Assembly: GCF_021134715.1 (NCBI RefSeq)
Contig: NC_060019.1
Span: 186,001 to 250,000 of the forward strand
Source: Daphnia pulex
Taxonomy: Eukaryota; Arthropoda; Branchiopoda; Diplostraca; Daphniidae
Reading direction: 5' to 3'
Length of the DNA stretch: 64,000 nt
Notes under the pieces: generated by a model
The model's database searches: none
The model's input: only the letters and a program-made list of their open reading frames with translations
What the model was told of the DNA's origin: nothing
Translations under genes and position numbers: made by a program
Shown: piece by piece, positions 18,714-47,800 of the stretch
Layout of the letters: every line of letters begins with the position of its first letter
Position numbering within the stretch: position 1 is the first letter of the stretch

Positions 18714-18984
18714 GACGTCCAGCGACGCCAAGACGCTCGGAGTGGCCGCCTCTCTCATCGCCTCTTCTCCGGCCCATCAACAGCAGCAGCAGCAGACGGG
18801 CGGCGGTGGCGGTGGCAAATTGTTGGCCCAGGACAAATTCTCCTGTCAGAACCGATTCGTCGTCCTGTGCATCGAAGCCACCAGCCAAGGGGTGGCCACC
18901 GGTGGCAGTGGGCGGGTGAAGCGGACGGCCGAGCACATCATCTCGGAGGATCACTACCAAGCCCACCTTCAGTCGCTCTTTTAA
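18714..18984 (+). pseudogene. Endostatin C-terminal exon fragment (left arm)
   Basis: Matches the last exon of the collagen gene from 'acgtccagcgacgcc' onward: [18 protein letters not shown], a poly-Gln/poly-Gly run, [20 protein letters not shown], then a different C-terminus ending LQSLF-stop. It lacks the upstream half of endostatin. The same fragment, with in-frame length differences, sits in the other arm. It could be the last exon of a second, unrecognised gene, but no complete gene is visible. Confidence 0.7.
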
Positions 18985-27983: not shown

Positions 27984-28255
27984 TTAAAAGAGCGACTGAA
28001 GGTGGGCTTGGTAGTGATCCTCCGAGATGATGTGCTCGGCCGTCCGCTTCACCCGCCCACTGCCACCGGTGGCCACCCCTTGGCTGGTGGCTTCGATGCA
28101 CAGGACGACGAATCGGTTCTGACAGGAGGAGAATTTGTCCTGGGCCAACAATTTGCCACCGCCACCGCCGCCCGTCTGCAGCTGCTGTTGGTGGGAAGGA
28201 GAAGAGTTGGCCACTCCGAGCGTCTTGACGTCGCTGGACGTCATTTGAGATATTT
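27984..28255 (-). pseudogene. Endostatin C-terminal exon fragment (right arm)
   Basis: Same fragment as 18714-18984 but with codon-multiple indels: the Ala-Ser-Leu-Ile run is shortened, the Gln run reads QQQLQ, and an extra Ser precedes the CQNRF motif. The frame stays open to the same stop. Confidence 0.7.
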
Positions 28256-36850: not shown

Positions 36851-37505
36851 ATCATGGAAGAGGACAAGATGTAAATCACTCTTGTTAGCGAGTGAAGGCC
36901 AGAAGAACATCTGTAGTGTTTCCAGGTTCCCAACATCAACAGCGAAGAAAAATCCTGTAATTTAAGTCAATAATATAGAAAGGAAGATTTTAAATCCAGT
37001 AATTTCACATGGGCTTACTAACACATTATAACAAGACAAATAGGATTCTTCTTTTGGTTGGTGCCACATTGTTATACAGTCATACTCGTTTAAGCATTGA
37101 ATGTTACCTTTCTGCCGCGAAAATGATGGGTGAATGTTATGTTGGTTAATGTTTACCTGAATCCGTGAATGTTAATTCTCAACAGCGTTGTCACTTTTCA
37201 AAACTGAGAATCTTTTTAAATAACAAAAATGGCGCGAAATCTGGTGTTTATGTCAAGCCAACGCCATCTATCAAATGAACGAAATGCCAAAAGTAACCAA
37301 TACCAAACCAAAACAAAAACGAGAAATATCAAAGTTGACTTTACAAGACAAGAAAAAGGAAATTAATAATATTACTATTTAAAATAGAAACCTGAGTTGA
37401 ATCAGGGTGAAGTTTTTACTTAAATTGGGACTAGTTTGTAAATTCTTTTATTTGTTTTACCTTATTACAGATTATACTTATTTTTTCGACAACAAGTCGT
37501 TGTAT

Positions 37506-40500
37506 TCAGATAGTTTTCTGTTCGAAATGCTCGACCACCCGCTTCACCCACCCACTGGCGACCACTTGGCTAGTGGCTTCGATGCACAGGACGACGAATC
37601 GGTTCTGACAGGAGAATTTGTCCTGGGCCAACAACTTGCCACCGCCACCGCCGCCCGTCTGCTGCTGCTGTTGGTGAGAGGGCGGAGAAGAGGCGATGAG
37701 AGAGGCGGCCACTCCGAGCGTCTTGGCGTCGCTGGACGTCCAGGCGTCGCAGTACGAGTCGAGTTGGCGTTCGCCACTGGGCCCGGCTCCGTGCCAGACC
37801 ACCTTCTGCGGCCAGACAATGTCGTCGAAGATGTTGCGGTTGTTGAAACTGTAAATGTCGTGTCGCAGCTGACGGGCAGGGGATAATTCACTGGCGCTCC
37901 CGCCGTGGAACAGATCGTTCCACGTCCGGAATAGCATCTCACCCTAGTCGAAAAGGAATAACAATGTTAAAGTAAAAAAGAAGAAGATGAAAAGATATTT
38001 ATTCTTAATGATATTATTGCTCATACCCTGAGATTGATGACTGGATACCCACGGTAGGGTGGACAGACAATTTTGTCAAGTTTCTGGACACCCGAAGCTA
38101 AAAAGGCTCGAAAAGTTCCCTGGAAATGGTCAGACAAAATTGGATTTTGTGTTTAGATTTTCAAATCAGACAGTCGAAGAACAAGAGAAAAAGAAAAAAA
38201 GGTGTTGCTTGGTTGTTTGACGACTTACTCTGAGTCCGGCTTGACGGGCCTGTCTGTAACAGGCCAAGTCCACGCGCTGGATGCCGCCCATGTTTCCAGT
38301 AAAGGGTTCGTTCAACGCCACCAACCGCAACTGCATTTGGAATTCAATGAATGGAGAAGACTCAATTGAATTAAACGAGATGCAATTGTGTAACAGCGAA
38401 AACGATACAAGTGCACACGCTTAACAAAATAACGATGGCTGTAAAGGTTCGTTTTTCCCTCAAAAAAATTAACAAAATCCCAATTTTTTTTCTTTTTTTT
38501 TAAACTTACACTGGGAACTCTGGGGATTTTCGGGATAATGTTCTCCGCAGCGCTGGGCGCCGACTTTTTCAATGTGGTTGGCGGCGGAATTGTCGTCGTC
38601 GTCGTCGGGGTCGGCAACGGCACAAATTTCCCCATCTGTTTCATTATGGCGCAATCAATCGTCCAAAAAGGAGAAAAATTATTTTGATTGTCATTTTATT
38701 CTTACAAAAATAAAATTTCGCGCTAAGAAACACCAAAATGAGAGAAACAACTCACCGAAATGTACTGCCAGCCTTTGCGGACGCGGAGTAAAAGGCTCTC
38801 CTCGTCCGAGAGATAGGCGATGGTTCCAACGGGGCTGACATCTGAAATCTAAATACAAACGGTTATGGTTATTGCCTTTCGCTTCATTAGGACAAACAGG
38901 CAGACGGGCGAAAAAAAAAAGGAAAAGAGCCAGGTGGACAATGGTCATCAATGATTGCTTCGCTCCTGGTAATGGTGGTGCTGGTTTGATGATCCTGGCA
39001 ATTCTTCTCACCCTTCTCACACACGAAATGGGCTTCTTATTGGGAGGGTTGGGAGTTTGAACAAAATGGGATACGTTATAGTTTGTAATATTGGGTGCTG
39101 TTTGGCTTCACCTTGAAAAGAGCTTCCATGTTTTTAACTGTGACTATTCCCGGCGCCACACCTTTTGGGCTCCCCTCACCACCTTGTGACGACGAAGACG
39201 ATCCTACAAAAGTTGCCAAAAGAAATCGGTTACAAAGTGTCCAACCATCAAACGAAACAAAAATCCCATTGCGAAATATTCGGGACTTTGGCAAAACAGC
39301 AACATTTTTTTTAAGGAGAAAAAGATAGAAAATTGCAAGAAAGACTTTTGGATTTTGACTGTACCTGGTTGGAATTTCTAGCCTGGGTTTTATTATTATG
39401 ACGATTGAAATGGTTAGATGATTAGGTTAGGACTGTTGAGATTTAAGGCAGGTCAAGAGGAAAAGAGTGTTAATATTATTTGTTTAGTTTGTTAAGTTTT
39501 GTTTCGGTTAATTTGCCTGATTTGGACGGTTCGCTTGGAGGTCCAGGAGGTCCAGGAGGACCTGGCTTGCCCCGTTTGCCTCGATCTCCTTGATTTCCTT
39601 TGGCTCCTTCGACACTGGAAATAACCGAAGGACCGACTGGACACGCAGGGCCAATTTCGCCTTTCGTTCCTGGCAATCCCGGCTCGCCAGTGTCGCCTGT
39701 AGGACCCATTTCCCCGTCGGTTCCTCGATCTCCTTTGGTACCTGGTAGCCCAGGTTTACCTAGATCACCAGGCGGTCCATCTCGACCGGGCTCGCCTTTG
39801 GGTCCAGAAGGCCCTTCTTTGCCAACCGGCCCGGAATCGCCGCGTTCTCCTTTCTCTCCAGCTGGGCCTTCAGGTCCAGTCGGTCCCGTCTGACCTTGAG
39901 CTCCCTAGAGAGGCGAAAGCAAAAATTAAAAAGATGATTAAACATTTGTTTGTTTTTATAAGAAAAATGTCATTCCGTCTTGAATAATATTAATGTTAAT
40001 CAAATGGACAAGTGATGATGAATGAATGACACACTGAGTGAGAGAAAAAGGAAAGGAGAGAATAACTCACTTCGAGGACCAGTGGTCCGCTGGACACACC
40101 CGGTGGTCCAGGCTGTCCAGGTTTTCCTAGATCACCGCGTGATCCATCACGACTGGGCTCACCTTTCGGCCCAAAAGGACCTTCTTTGCCAACTGGGCCG
40201 ACATCTCCGCGTTCTCCTTTCTCTCCAGCTGGGCCTTCAGGTCCAGTCGGTCCCATCTGACCTTGAGCTCCCTACACAGGTGACACCAAAAAACAAAAAG
40301 ATGATCAAATTTAAAAAAAAAATGTCATTCCGTCTGTAATAATACCGGAATGCCCGTCGTGCCAGGTTTGCCGTCAACGCCCGGCGGACCCGGCGCTCCC
40401 TGTTTGACTTGCTCGGCCAGTTTGGCGATGATGGAACTCTCGTTGCAGCCACAAACGCCTCCACCCTTTAAAAATAAGAAAAAATGGTTACCACAAAATA

Positions 40501-43500
40501 TGCCGAATTATCTCAAAGTGGTGCAAAGTCAGAGGTCCCATCATTGAATTATTAATCGAACATCTCATCCCCTCCGACAAGAAAAGCTGGCCCGTTCATT
40601 TCACCGTCAAGAGAGGATAACAATGAGCGGAAGAGAATAAGTTGGGCCAATCAACGTCACAATCCGTCGTCGAGTGAGGTCAAACAGAAATAAACTACTT
40701 GAGATGTTCTGACAAAAGTCTAACAAAAGACAACTTACTCCGACAATCGTAGAAGATTCGCCGTTGACGCCTTTTTCTTCTGTTAAAAAACCAAAAACAA
40801 AATCAGAATTTAATCCGTCACAAATGAAAAAAAGTGATCAAATGAGCGAAACCAAACAGATTTCCAATGAAATAATAATGCAACCGATTCGCGAAATCTC
40901 CACAGTGACAGCACAAAATAAACGAATCATCCGCTTTCACATATACCGGATGGATCGACGTTTTATTTTCGTTGTTCTTTTGTTTTTCTGCTCATCAGAC
41001 GAATTCAAGCGGTGGCTAAATATTTACCAATGTACATCACCAAGATGGGCAGACGCACTGCTAAGAAGATGAAACAATTACAGAAACAAAGTTAATTATT
41101 CACCTGGAGAGATGGATGTGGGGCAGGTGGTGAGGGTTTGCTGCTCCCAACAGGAGGCGTGTGGATTATTGTCGGGTGGAGGCGAACACTCGCCCAGTTG
41201 CGACTGCCATCCGCAGTAAGGATCCACGAAATCGAGACACTGCGTCCTGTTGGCGAATCGCTTGCATCGTTGACTGGCCAGTCGGATCACCTCGTTTTCC
41301 GTTCCAATGTACAGCGCGTTCTGTCCAGTACAACGTGAGAAACAATAAAAGGAGCAAAAAGGATGAGTAACCTAATCGGAACGTTAATTTCACAAGGGCG
41401 ACACATACCTGCACTTTAAGGAATTGCATCGTTTTGATCTGGCGGTCAGCCGGTTGATGGCTCAACCGGGCAAAAGGATCGACAATTTCGACCAGACAGC
41501 GTTCCTGAGTCCCGGGAAAGACGGAATATTTGCGAACGAAACCGTCTCGAGATGCCACGTAGAGGACGTGAATGGACGAATGATTTTTAGTGGCGACCAC
41601 GTCGACGGCGATGTGGTTGAATCGTACCGAATCGAGCTGGATCAGCGGTCCACGTCCGTATTTTCTGGGTCGAGATTGGACAGCTCGATCCATCAGCTGA
41701 TACTTTCCAGCTTCCACCAAGGATCTGCTAGAACTGCTGGAACTGCTCGTGTCATCAGAATTGCAATGCGAGTGGACGTGAGTCGAGTTGACACTCTCCC
41801 AGGTCGAATTGGGACTCGACTGGATTTTGAACGGACCGGCGAACGATTCTTGTATCGCATCCAGGGTGAAGGAGCAAACGGCCGATCCAGCAATTGAATT
41901 TCTACATTAGAGCGGGAAATTTGAAAAACAAGATTAAGTCAAATTTAATAGAAAAAGTGACGTGTGATTATTAACTCGGCTGTTGTGAAGGCGGCGTAAA
42001 AGAGCCGCTCCTCTTCCACGTAGGCGACACTCTGAATGTGATCGTAGTAGAACGGATAATCAGCCGGCACTGAGCAATTGAGCCGGGCTTTGACAAAGGT
42101 CGTCCACGTACTGTCTTTGAGCCTCTGCTGCTGGCCACCGCCCATGTCGTTCTTGCAGACCCGGGCCACACGGGAGTAAACGGCCTTGCCGCAGTTGCTG
42201 ACCTCGACGGCCACCTCTCGGAAAAAGAAAAAGACAAACTGGTCCACTTCTACCGACGCCACAAATTCGGCAGCGTCCAGCCAGTTGACCTTGCTTGGCA
42301 ACGTCCTCAAATGCCCGAGCTGCGGGCCGGCAATGAAACTGTCAGCCGATGTGCTGGAAACGGACGAATTCAAAGGCAGCCGGAAGATGGCCACCTCCTG
42401 GCTGGACAAGTCTGTCGGCGAACCGATAAACAAATCAGCAGTGCCATCAGCCGGTCTGCTCGACAGGAAACTGCTCATGTGACTGTGAGGGCTATGCGGA
42501 CATCTATCACGTCCATCAAATAAAGAGGAAAAATGAATTGATTTAATTGAGAGTGGCCAGAAATGCTGATGGATTTCTTACCTGGCAAGGCACGGAAAAC
42601 ATTCCGAGATGTTGCTGATGGCCTTGAGCGGACGCCAGGAGCAGCGAGGAGTGAAGGCGTTGGTCCCGCACGCCAGAAGTCGATCACCTGAATGAATAGA
42701 CGCAAAATGAAAAACAAAATTTGTTGCGGTTATTTAATTATTTCGGTCGGAGAGTTTGGAATTTCATTAAACGAGAGAAATCATAGAATCCGGAAAGAAT
42801 GTGAATACCGTGGACGTGCAGAACGCGGATGAAGTTGTGACAGTCGTCTTCCCGTTGGTCGTTTTTTTGGCAGTCGTCGACCGCTTTGTCATCGGCTGGC
42901 CAGCGTGATTCTTCCAAGAGAGCCAATCCGTCCAAGCTCAAGCGAAATAGATAGTCCCTGATGTCGGTTGTGATTGAAAATAAAAGTTACCGATGTTTAA
43001 AAACAAAAAACAGGCCAAAATTTTTCTTCTTGTGGAATAATCAAGTCGAATTTTTCAAAATAAAATCAATCCATCAAACCTATTATAGACTGAGCAAATG
43101 AGAAATGAGTCAGTTATCCCAGAGTCATCTCCTCCAGATTTTGTTTGCCACATTTGCCATCGATTCACTTTGATGGTCCTTCAAGTTTGGAAAGGATCGA
43201 TCGAAACGTCAAATGAAACGACAAACTCGACACCAGTCGATAGCCTTTTCCCTTTAATTCCTATTTCGCCCACTTGTCCTGCTCACGTTCTTTTTTGTTG
43301 GTCTCCCATTCCGTCGAGCCCTTTGTATCGTCGCCCAACCCGACACTACCAGTCGACTATGATCCCTCCATGGTTTCCTGTTTTGCCTAACGAACGAAAC
43401 ATGTTTCGCAAGTTACAAATTATATGGTGGGGAATCGAATAGCAGAATGCGAATAATAACCCAATCCATCGTCCATAAAAATTATAAAGAATTGGCGATC

Positions 43501-43903
43501 TAGACTAAAACAGAAATGGATACCCTTAGGAAAATTGTGTTTTACCTTGCGGCCACGATAAGTTGCCCTCGCGTCACGTCAAACACCAGCGAAGAAAAAT
43601 TGCGGGCGACGTTGTGGTTGAACCTGACCATCGACTCTTCCAAAACTGGATAGGCAATGTGCAAAAATTAAAAAATCAGTCAACATCTTAACGTACACAG
43701 CCAAGTCGAAATGGGCAGAACGATGACTATCAAATTGAATTCTTGCACCGACACATTTTCGATAGAATTTTCAACTTACCGCTATCGTTGGGTTGCCGGA
43801 AATCGGGTAAATCGGGACTAGGTCCGTGGTGTTGGGAAGCAAATGAAGAGACGCCGAGGATGGCCGCCACAGCCAGCAAGGCCGCCGCTTTGAAATTTCC
43901 CAT
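37506..43903 (-). CDS. Sema-PSI-collagen-endostatin fusion protein (multiplexin-like), 1147 aa
   Basis: Eighteen minus-strand exons: 43903-43780, 43645-43546, 42957-42809, 42687-42582, 42503-41976, 41901-41409, 41320-41104, 41060-41028, 40779-40739, 40465-40346, 40271-40071, 39904-39517, 39203-39112, 38848-38756, 38635-38510, 38330-38229, 38119-38027, 37943-37506; 3444 nt, every junction phase-consistent. Residues 1-23 are a signal peptide. About 40-500 form a Sema domain ([23 protein letters not shown]). About 505-560 are PSI ([11 protein letters not shown]). About 612-833 carry Gly-X-Y repeats split by small interruptions. About 845-895 is the trimerisation region ([34 protein letters not shown]). 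About 935-1147 is endostatin ([46 protein letters not shown]) with a Gln/Gly-rich insert. Exon 12 uses a GC donor. Known collagen XV/XVIII start with a laminin-G-like domain, so the Sema head is unusual. Confidence 0.85.
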
Positions 43904-44863
43904 CGTCCGTCACTGATTATCCAGTTGAGCCGTTGGGGACACCTGCAAATAAAGGTTTTCTTATTTAGTCAGTCAATGGACTAATCAAATTCAATTTATG
44001 ATAAAAATTAGCAATGAAAATAAGCAAAGTGAAATTCAATTTTCAAACAATTAAAAATAAAAAGCCAAAATAAATCTTATCAGATTAACATCCTGCATCT
44101 AACCTAATTCGACATAACAACACGGTTATGAGATCACATTACAGAAAATTCAAAATTTTACCAAATCAAAAAGACAAAGAAAAACAAAAGGCAAACGGAA
44201 ACGTTTCCAGAAACCAACCGCTTTTGGAAGATTAAAATTGACGTGGTTCGCCAGACTCGATTGATTTCAAACAAGTAGGAAAAAGGCGCAAGTTCGGATG
44301 GTTGCGGTTGATAATCGGGGGTTGTTGTTTCACCGTTGCACTTGACAAACGACTAGCCAGAAAGACTCAGAACTGCAGGGCGATCGATTTGAAGTTGAAC
44401 TGGCATCAGTAACAGTCCTGAACGAGCACAAAGTGGCGAGTGGTGTAGAGAGGCGAATGTGACACCTATACAGTTTTCTGTGCTAATACAATTTATCCTT
44501 TGATTGGGCTGACTTCCTTTAACTCGATATTTAAGAGCCGAGCTATTCTCTCGAGTGTCTCAACGTCGCAACGTGTGTCGTGTGTCAAAGATTAAAATTC
44601 CATCGCATCCACAAGTGGAAAGAGAAAGACGATGCCCGAGAATACAATATAGAAGACGATCAGACAGCATCGGATGAACCATTAGGTGATTCACACTCGC
44701 CAGTTGTTTAAATTCTCTTGATTAACAATTAACGGAGGGAATTGTTTTGCCTATTTTTGAAAAGCAGCTTGTTAAATAACAAAGAAAAAGTAGAATAAAA
44801 TTTTACCGAAATCACCAGCCAATAGTGAAGGATTAAAAAAGTCAGAAAATCACTCAACTCCTC
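43904..44863. other. Shared 5' region of the collagen and kinase-B genes
   Basis: The two genes diverge from this 960-bp stretch. On the minus strand an acceptor at about 43944 suggests a 5'-UTR intron in the collagen gene. A TGACGTGG motif lies at 44239-44246. 'gatatttaagagc' near 44530 is a weak TATA-like site for the kinase gene. No ORF of note. Confidence 0.45.
44239..44246 (+). promoter_or_regulatory. UPRE-like motif between the divergent genes
   Basis: TGACGTGG, the same 8-mer found (inverted) upstream of array A. It could serve either the kinase or the collagen gene; chance occurrence is possible. Confidence 0.25.
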
Positions 44864-47800
44864 ATGTTGAAATTACGCGACAAATTTCGGCAGTTGAAAC
44901 TGACCGTTCGATCGTTGGACCGTACCAAGATTTTGGCACACGGAGGAGCATATGGCACCGTATTTGAAGGGCAATGGCGTGGGATTCCAGTGGCCGTCAA
45001 GCGAGTTCCTAACAATTTAACAAAGGAACGGAAGAAATCAACTTTACTGAAACTCAATCATCGAAATGTCATCAAATTATTTCACATAGACAGCGACGAA
45101 CATTTCAAGTAATTTTTACATAATAAGAGCTATACTTTTTAAAATGATAACTAACAAGTGTTCCATTTCAGGCATTACGTTCTCGAATTATGTGAAGCCT
45201 CACTCGACAGATTATTTTTGAAAGAGTGCGACCCGCGAAAATATCGTGGCCCAATGCCACCAGAGTATGAAATCATCAAACAATTAGCCGAAGGACTCGA
45301 GTACATCCACCAAATGAAACTAATCCATCGGGATATTAAACCAGAAAACGTCCTCATCTGGGTGAACCCACAAACTGATCAAGTTTTGATGAAATGGTCC
45401 GGGCTTGAAACGAGCAAACTAGTCAACGAAAGGGGAACGTGTTCCATGAGTGGAATCAAAGGAACGTACAACTGGCTGGCACCGGAAACAATCAAATTAC
45501 TTAAAGAGGAAGACGCTAATTTTGTCCAGCAAACATGGACAATCCAATCGGATGTTTTTGCGGAAGGACTGGTCTTTGGCTATTATTTATTGGGCGGGAG
45601 GCATCTATACGGATCCCGTTATCAAATTCAATACAACATCATCAAGAATGCTCCCGTGAATCTGCCTAGTAAGTCGGGTTCTAAATACATGAGCTCAATT
45701 AATAAACTTAATTGATGTCAAAAGAAATCCAGGTGAAACCTGCTTTACGTGCCCTGATTGAGAAAATGTTGACAGCGAACCCAGAAGATCGAATTACTTC
45801 GTCAGATGTCGTTCAGCAACTCGAAAATATCGGACGTGGACCGTTCAAGGTAATGGCCAGTTTGAATCTTGGTGTAACTAGTCCATTTATGTTTGATCAC
45901 TATAATAACAATAAGAAAAGAACAAGAGAAAATTAATTTAAACAACCCACACAAATTTTCAGGACGACGAAGTGGTTGGTATAATTCGGTGTAGTTTATT
46001 CGATGACAGACCACCACCCGAAAAATCGAATGAAATCAAATTGGACAAAGAGACCATTTTAGGAAACGGAGATTACGGCGACGTTTTTCTAGGCGAATGG
46101 AATAGCAAACGGGTGGCTGTCAAGCAAATCAAATTATCGGAAATGAAAACACAAAAACAAGAAGACGAACTGACATTACTGAGACTTGACCATCCGAATG
46201 TCGTCAAACTTTTGCACGTCGAGGATGACTCAACATATAGGCAAATATAAAGTCGACAGACTTACATGGCCAGCAAAATAAGAATTAACTCTTAAAGCAG
46301 TGCTGCCACTATGTCGGATTTGTCAGTTTTTGTAGGATTTTCGAAGTGCTTGCATGACATTTGCAGGACGTAAGATTTTGCAGGATTTTCCAATTTTTTG
46401 TCGGATATCTGGTAATTTTTGGGGATTTTTTGAATATCTGGTGATAATTGTATTAATCAATTGAAATTTGCAGTAGTCAACAACTGAGACCACTGTGGCG
46501 CTGTTGTCTGGTGCTCTGAGCCTAAGCCGCTCTGAGCCTTACTCTGAGTTTCTGATCTGTGGACGTCTAGTCCTCTCGTTTGACTGTTTGAATTTGAGAG
46601 TTTTATTGAAAAAAAGTTCTGACATTGTTGAGGTTTGAACCATTAATCACTGGAGTTTCCATTCCAGCTTGCTATCCATTCAGCTATAGAGACCTTATCA
46701 ACAGTTACAAGTTGTATGTATTAATTACATTAATGGTTAATGAAATGACTCTTGTCATTTTTTCGTTGCAGCAGAGAAAACATTGGGTAGTACGTTTATA
46801 AATAAAGTAAATACGTTAAGTTTATGATAATTGTGTTGCTTAAAGGACTTGTTCTTTTTTATTTAACATACTTAAGAAGCATTAACATACTTTTTAAAAC
46901 TTTAAGTACGTTAAATCTATTATAAGTGTGTTGCTAAAAGTACTTGTTCTGTAAACATACTTAATTTCATTTTATAAACATACTTATTTTTTTGTAAGCA
47001 TATTACACTTCGAAGAAGCATGAAATTTTGCTTTTCAGTTTGTTTATAATTCTTACCAAAAAGCGTAACGTGTTAAAGTAATCTTAAAGTGCTGAAATAG
47101 GGCTAAAATAAGCATCCTACCGAGCTGCTGTGTAGCTTTTAACTGTCGGTCAACAGTATCAAAATAATGTTTTACCTGTCTGACAAGAAAAGACTTCAAA
47201 TATACTAGGATAACTAGGAAATTATGTTGGATCGTGTCGGATTTATGCGGGTTTTTTTTTTTTTGCAAGATTTTTGCGGGATTTTGAAGAAAATCGTGCA
47301 AGATAAAGTGCAGGATTTTTCAAAAAAAAAAAACGGATTTTCGGGACTTTTTAGGCAACCCTGCACGACTTTGCTATTTCATAAGTGGCAGCACTGTCTT
47401 AAAGATATCATTTGTTAATTATAATTTCTAGGAATTATGCAATGGAACTGTGTGCCGCCTCGTTGGACCAATTATTCTTGAAAGATGATGACCATTCAAA
47501 ATATCTCGAGTCGATGCCCCCAGCGGAAGATGTCCTCTATCAATTGGCTATTGGACTCTACTACATTCACGAAAAGGGATTGATCCATCGGGACATTAAA
47601 CCTCAAAACGTCCTCATCTGGATGAATCCAACAACCAATCAAGTCGTGATGAAATGGGGCGGATTACGACTTAGTAAAGGGAACGACGATATTAAAAACA
47701 GGAATTTGACATTTGGATGGTTAGCGCCAGAATTACTGAAGACACTGGACAAAGGAGATTTCGATACGTTTCCAACAGTCAAGAGTGACGTCTTTGCCCA

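Follow-up and report, generated by a model that had tools for sequence, protein, structure and literature searches.

A probable semaphorin 5–multiplexin chimera with a collagen and endostatin tail in Daphnia pulex

Does a single gene of Daphnia pulex join a semaphorin to the collagen and endostatin tail of a multiplexin, and if so, how might it have come about? The question is raised by a locus in a stretch of 64,000 nucleotides (nt) from RefSeq assembly GCF_021134715.1 (contig NC_060019.1, positions 186,001 to 250,000 of the forward strand), hereafter the window, in which positions are counted from the first letter. The contig holding the window, here called C3, is 13,279,582 bases long, in a genome of 133,188,837 bases in 13 contigs. 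A first reading made from the letters of the window (the sequence-only reading) had placed there a semaphorin fused to a collagen XV/XVIII-type tail with endostatin. The present analysis indicates that this gene, on the minus strand from 43903 to 37506, is probably a genuine chimera that arose by duplication and exon shuffling, with a semaphorin 5 head on a multiplexin tail, and that its predicted product would be a secreted, clustered ligand held in the matrix.

Splicing of 17 exons, from an ATG at 43903 to a TGA ending at 37506, gives a single open frame of 1136 amino acids with neither phase conflict nor internal stop. Both ends agree with the sequence-only reading, and splicing together with matches in Pfam and the Protein Data Bank (PDB) also bears out its claim that one frame joins a semaphorin head, instead of a thrombospondin-like head, to a multiplexin tail; its count of 18 exons and 1147 amino acids has to be revised to the figures given here. 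The higher count would fit one further exon of 33 nt lying after exon 7 and before exon 9, to which the earlier numbering of 41320 to 40346 as exons 7-10 points; this was considered and rejected, the NCBI model of a paralogue (described below) being without any such exon. All splice sites are intact over the 1136 codons, and introns are GT-AG throughout, save intron 11, which is GC-AG. The GC donor of this intron lies at 39516 (minus strand), and the matching exon junction is used by the same NCBI model.

The encoded domains follow in the order signal peptide, class-5 Sema, PSI, 14-residue linker, 62 Gly-X-Y triplets, collagen XV/XVIII trimerisation domain and endostatin. The signal peptide, assigned from hydropathy only (peak 1.93, residues 4-22, the sole stretch with a mean above 1.6), is encoded with the start codon by exon 1 (43780..43903; this and all following exons on the minus strand). 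Pfam matches were obtained for Sema (E 4e-28), Collagen (E 2e-25), Collagen_trimer (PF20010, E 3e-14, 53.3 bits) and Endostatin (PF06482, E 8e-48, 162.7 bits), and sequence matches in the PDB to the Drosophila Sema2A structure 6qp7 (E 2e-69 over residues 64-547), a collagen XV chain (3n3f, 54 residues covering the trimerisation domain, E 7e-5) and an endostatin structure (1dy0, E 1e-39). The triple helix is interrupted, with Gly-X-Y runs of 19, 6, 29 and 8 triplets, the total of 62 counting runs of five or more and leaving out a run of three within a Gly-rich GGGGVCGCN stretch. Pfam found neither TSP_1 repeats nor a thrombospondin-like N-terminal head in the window protein, the head being Sema, and by hydropathy no transmembrane-like segment was present past residue 573 (maximum 19-residue mean 1.25). 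All 16 Sema-PSI cysteines that are common to the C1 semaphorin 5 (see below) and Daphnia magna over exons 2-7 are retained in the fusion protein, as are the four endostatin cysteines. Cys264, encoded by exon 5, corresponds to Cys279 of Drosophila Sema2a, since in the 6qp7 alignment this cysteine and the Asn-Cys-Ser site (N314 as numbered in PMC6695400) share the same 23-residue offset.

Where the two halves come from can be read exon by exon. The Sema exons 2 (43546..43645; 86% DNA identity), 3 (42809..42957; 83%), 4 (42582..42687; 82%), 5 (41976..42503; 81%) and 6 (41409..41901; 79.5%), together with exon 7 (41104..41320; 82%), which holds the end of Sema and the PSI domain, match a semaphorin 5 gene on another contig, C1, with identical splice boundaries, at 79.5-86% identity overall. 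The C1 gene then runs into thrombospondin repeats and a membrane/semaphorin-5 tail resembling D. magna semaphorin-5A. In a tree, the window Sema domain groups with those of C1 and D. magna Sema5 with support of 100/100, with an open fork where C1, D. magna and the fusion clade separate. The leading matches of the full-length protein search, which like our other protein searches covered a length-limited database clustered at 90% and may therefore miss cases, were likewise semaphorin 5 proteins.

Exons 9 to 17 match instead a multiplexin gene on C3 itself, at 322.4k-304.4k on the minus strand and about 75 kb away, in which thrombospondin-like head matches (tblastn; 322.4-321.6k and 320.5k) are followed by collagen, trimerisation and endostatin exons. 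Exon 9 (40346..40465), with the first Gly-X-Y triplets, is 96% identical to C3:309.5k; the collagen exon 10 (40071..40271) is 90.5% identical to a multiplexin exon; and exon 11 (39517..39904), also collagen, begins with a copy of exon 10, ends at the GC donor and aligns to multiplexin over 168 of its 388 nt. Exon 12 (39112..39203; 86%) starts NC1, and is followed by exon 13 (38756..38848) with the trimerisation domain, placed by Pfam and by the PDB sequence match, and exon 14 (38510..38635), a hinge placed by the splice model and multiplexin alignment. Endostatin is spread over exon 15 (38229..38330; Pfam and PDB sequence match), exon 16 (38027..38119), which is divergent, and exon 17 (37506..37943; splice model and PDB sequence match), which also carries the stop; a possible polyadenylation signal, AATAAA, lies about 50 nt past it at 37447..37452 (minus strand). 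Splice boundaries are identical to those of multiplexin in exons 9, 10 and 12-16, exons 11 and 17 having aligned over part of their length. Both parent genes were compared through such exon matches. Each family thus retains an ordinarily built member elsewhere in the genome, to which the window gene adds a chimeric one; a horizontal or viral origin was rejected, both halves matching host genes. Within this part of the gene, at 39736-40345, one collagen exon is present twice in nearly the same form, as exon 10 and as the beginning of exon 11, and the sequences preceding the two are alike; only one of the two is included in the NCBI model of the paralogue.

How, then, were two genes of different phase joined? 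The PSI exon ends in phase 1 and the first collagen exon begins in phase 0, and these otherwise incompatible phases are bridged by exon 8 (40739..40779), whose 41 nt give it a length of 3n+2. Plain blastn found no source for it, and the idea that it was a newly born intronic exon, which followed from that result, was dropped once a sensitive alignment traced it to the 3' portion of the exon that directly precedes exon 9 in multiplexin (C3 ~311.3k). The exon 8 peptide aligns with multiplexin EKGDKGSSIDG, the GTAAG donor is identical, and an 18-nt word, TGTGACGTTGATTGGCC(C), is collinear in the introns after exon 8 and after its multiplexin counterpart. Exon 8 with the following intron scores 52, compared with maxima of 42 in 300 plain shuffles and 44 in 2000 dinucleotide shuffles, while exon 8 and donor alone reach 34, where the best of 2000 shuffles reached 30; over the entire multiplexin gene the best place is the same C3 ~311.3k site, and the best score against the C1 gene is 32. 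Because the alignment locates exon 8 there, we infer that it is a multiplexin exon truncated at its 5' end, and that the breakpoint lies at or near that end, inside the multiplexin exon.

The same semaphorin-multiplexin junction is found in a second copy on the plus strand of C3 (487.8-492.2k). The two copies share 88.9% DNA identity over window positions 40117-44257 and 89.6% over 39141-39992, and are 82-83% identical, gaps included, over the junction stretch. Exon 8 of the sister copy is 47 nt long, again 3n+2, and across its exons 1-9 all nine GT donors and all eight AG acceptors are kept. The two copies differ by 6 nt in exon 7, 6 nt in exon 8 and 9 nt in exon 9. Since the exons of each half of the window gene align one by one to those of its parent and the junction recurs in this second copy, the join is more than chance. 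The sister copy has an NCBI protein model on the same contig, 'semaphorin-5A-like isoform X3 [Daphnia pulex]' (607 amino acids; P0122), the first 451 residues of which are identical to our inferred splice from exon 5 to exon 9, exon 8 included. Its isoform number hints that RNA reads may lie behind the model; the annotation probably derives from the same assembly and would then offer no independent check on the join. Two lesser copies lie further along C3, a partial one at 496.7k with exon 8 and collagen and no Sema match, and a short copy of exon 9 at 505.7k. The window copy is the only complete fusion copy found. A partial protein from another D. pulex assembly (P0123) groups with the window Sema domain (support 98/96; 93% identity over 377 columns) and is the nearest listed protein to the window copy (86% in the junction search); it reads on through intron 6 and is uninformative about the tail.

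Has the fusion been read as a protein? Across exons 1-9 of the two copies, all eight net exonic length changes were multiples of three, as were 10 of the 32 intronic ones (Fisher p 0.0006). This count takes neighbouring gaps of 16 nt and 2 nt within a single Ser-rich repeat as one change of 18; with these gaps counted apart, seven of nine exonic changes keep the frame (p 0.02). The ratio of replacement to silent change (dN/dS, Nei-Gojobori, custom script) for Sema exons 2-7 was 0.54 against the sister copy (dN 0.053, dS 0.099; Fisher p 0.004), a high value, and 0.31 against C1 (dS 0.47), and for exons 12-17 against multiplexin it was 0.32 (dS 0.24), being below 1 in every segment that could be computed. 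Given the frame-keeping length changes and these ratios, the fusion was probably translated as one protein for some time; the window copy is complete and under some constraint. This constraint is loose, as introns 1-9 are 81-99% identical between the copies, close to the 89-98% of the exons. Silent divergence is higher towards the semaphorin parent than towards multiplexin, which suggests either that Sema was duplicated earlier or that the tail has since undergone homogenisation with multiplexin. Exchange between copies is possible, given that exon 16 lies closer to a fragment at C3:2165k (dS 0.18) than to multiplexin itself (dS 0.67; about 25 silent sites).

Several observations weigh against a functioning chimera. 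In the sister copy, a CGA to TGA change places a stop in exon 2, the P0122 model starting downstream of it, and the trimerisation domain, endostatin and the last part of exon 12 have been lost to a deletion that matches window positions 39141-36852, leaving a protein that ends GVAPGIVMHLFLCTSM. Exon 1 differs between the copies by two replacement changes and no silent ones, and yields no ratio. The Sema domain has evolved fast, with 77 replacements on the shared fusion lineage vs 8 on the C1 lineage over 518 columns and tree branches of 0.31 vs 0.025. PSI in the window protein is matched over its full length but weakly (E 6e-4, 20.5 bits, compared with the Pfam cut-off of 23.1 and 26.7 bits in the paralogue), Sema-PSI carries three additional cysteines and endostatin one more (Cys979, in exon 16), and no full-length protein of the window copy appears among the matches listed, though P0122 of the same contig is in the database. 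The strongest of the alternatives builds on such signs: the locus would be a decaying chimeric duplicate, once translated and now part of a pseudogene family that is losing pieces, of which the window copy is the last without a stop. The stop and tail loss at 487.8k, the partial collagen copies at 496.7k and 505.7k, the several endostatin fragments on C3, the fast Sema and the missing protein match would all suit this account, which we nonetheless consider unlikely, as the window copy retains every splice site and an intact frame, the exonic length changes mostly keep the frame, and dN/dS stays below 1 wherever silent changes allow it to be computed.

A second alternative would divide the locus into two transcription units, a secreted Sema-PSI protein stopping in intron 7 and a separate collagen-endostatin transcript. 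Read-through of the exon-7 donor does give SPGE followed by an in-frame stop, and an AATAAA stands at 40967 in intron 7. Exon 8, however, has in each copy the 3n+2 length that joining requires (41 nt in the window, 47 nt in the sister), and the NCBI paralogue model splices through. A separate start with its own signal peptide between 41100 and 40350, which the sequence-only reading had raised as the finding to set against its own proposal, appears unsupported, since ahead of exons 8 and 9 their open frames lack an ATG. We regard two units as improbable, a short isoform alongside the full-length one being possible. Least credible of all is an assembly error linking two unlinked genes: duplications do abound in the region, but two copies whose introns 1-9 have diverged to 81-99% identity both carry this junction.

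On the reading we prefer, a genuine chimera, a semaphorin 5 copy would have lost everything beyond its PSI exon and been fused to a duplicated multiplexin. The break would lie in one of the collagen exons of multiplexin, at its edge or just within it, where a splice acceptor would leave the 41-nt exon of length 3n+2. The window gene resembles the class 5 semaphorins (Sema5A/5B/5c) in its Sema and weakly matched PSI domains, which are 67% identical to D. magna semaphorin-5A (P0002), in the C1 splice boundaries of exons 2-7 and in the dimerising cysteine. It differs from them in having collagen, a trimerisation domain and endostatin in place of thrombospondin repeats, which PMC6374515 describes in all members of the Sema5 clade, and of a transmembrane-like segment. 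With the multiplexins (collagen XV/XVIII, Drosophila Mp) it shares a GGGVCGCN exon, collagen, the trimerisation domain, the hinge and endostatin; it departs from them in its Sema-PSI head where they have a thrombospondin-like one, in the added endostatin cysteine, and in a collagen region of about half the length (62 triplets in runs of at least 5, vs about 115 counted in the unspliced C3 multiplexin). P0122 has Sema, PSI, the linker exon and collagen in common with the window gene, and differs in that its model starts within Sema, without a signal peptide, and lacks the trimerisation domain and endostatin.

What might such a protein do? If expressed, the window copy would be secreted, its semaphorin 5 membrane anchor swapped for a matrix tail. 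The C-terminal trimerisation domain would nucleate the collagen triple helix, a step that PMC7852327 describes as critical for starting in-register assembly, and we propose that three Sema domains would thus be presented together and held in the matrix. According to PMC6695400, an interchain disulphide forms at the equivalent of Cys264 in Sema1a, Sema2a and Sema2b, the residue is conserved in class 5, and Sema5c is reported to bind PlexA. Pairing of Sema domains through this conserved cysteine, multiplied by trimerisation, may yield clustered plexin ligands or networks rather than simple dimers, and endostatin could be cut free through the hinge. No description of a three-fold stalk combined with covalently paired Sema domains was found for semaphorins.

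More tentatively, and on balance short of an even chance, the window may hold a young functional gene that fuses two signals sharing settings in Drosophila, its product a lattice-forming, matrix-held plexin ligand. The settings in question are presynaptic homeostasis, for Sema2b-PlexB and endostatin, and motor axon guidance, for Sema1a and Multiplexin; PMC5773188 reports that presynaptic homeostasis requires both Multiplexin/endostatin and Sema2b-PlexB, and PMC4978897 that Multiplexin has an axon guidance role. A functional link between semaphorin and endostatin read from the fusion is no more than suggestive; neither of these Drosophila semaphorins is of class 5. The architecture is unusual for two well-studied families, and with both parents and a degraded sister in one genome the stepwise birth of a chimeric extracellular protein becomes traceable, the break within an exon and the truncated exon bridging a phase mismatch making a clear case of incompatible genes fusing. 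Were the gene expressed, it would allow tests of whether a tail swap turns a membrane-bound guidance cue into a matrix-bound one, and of whether semaphorin and endostatin signals are linked functionally.

How widely does the combination occur? Judged by Pfam annotation, none of the best 120 of 3015 matches in the full-length search (7989 scored candidates) combined Sema with collagen or endostatin, one of the best 120 of 909 in the junction search (P0122) had Sema and collagen, and none of the 30 matches in the endostatin-half search, all of them listed, had Sema. No match in the latter search was named Daphnia, the D. pulex multiplexin protein being perhaps beyond the length limits or absent, and as this ordinary multiplexin is itself missing there, absence from that search proves little. 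The sole match named D. magna among those listed is an ordinary semaphorin 5, and the fusion gene is likely confined to the D. pulex lineage. In the open-access literature, no semaphorin joined to collagen or endostatin appeared in the top-ranked titles and abstract beginnings. The sequence-only reading, to which semaphorins with a collagen tail were not known, is supported in part. Sema with collagen and without endostatin is already in NCBI as P0122, and Sema with endostatin was seen nowhere outside the window gene among the matches listed.

Elsewhere on the contig, pieces of the last endostatin exon, with 82-90% identity, are scattered at window positions 18714-18935 (plus strand) and 28033-28242 (minus strand) and at C3:279.3k, 289.2k, 513.6k, 1281.0k and 2165.2k, and all except the 2165.2k copy share one end base, as if borne by a repeated segment. 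A separate collagen and trimerisation-domain fragment lies 4.3 Mb off at C3:4578.7k-4581.2k (L031), with no endostatin match listed there. Adjoining the fusion gene, at 44837-45715 on the plus strand, are protein-kinase-like exons (PF00069, E 3e-18 in 45155-45715) that run divergently from it. The blocks at 30.9-36.9k and 45.0-49.9k of the window have many 65-96% identical matches at C3:484-504k, and look like a locally amplified family.

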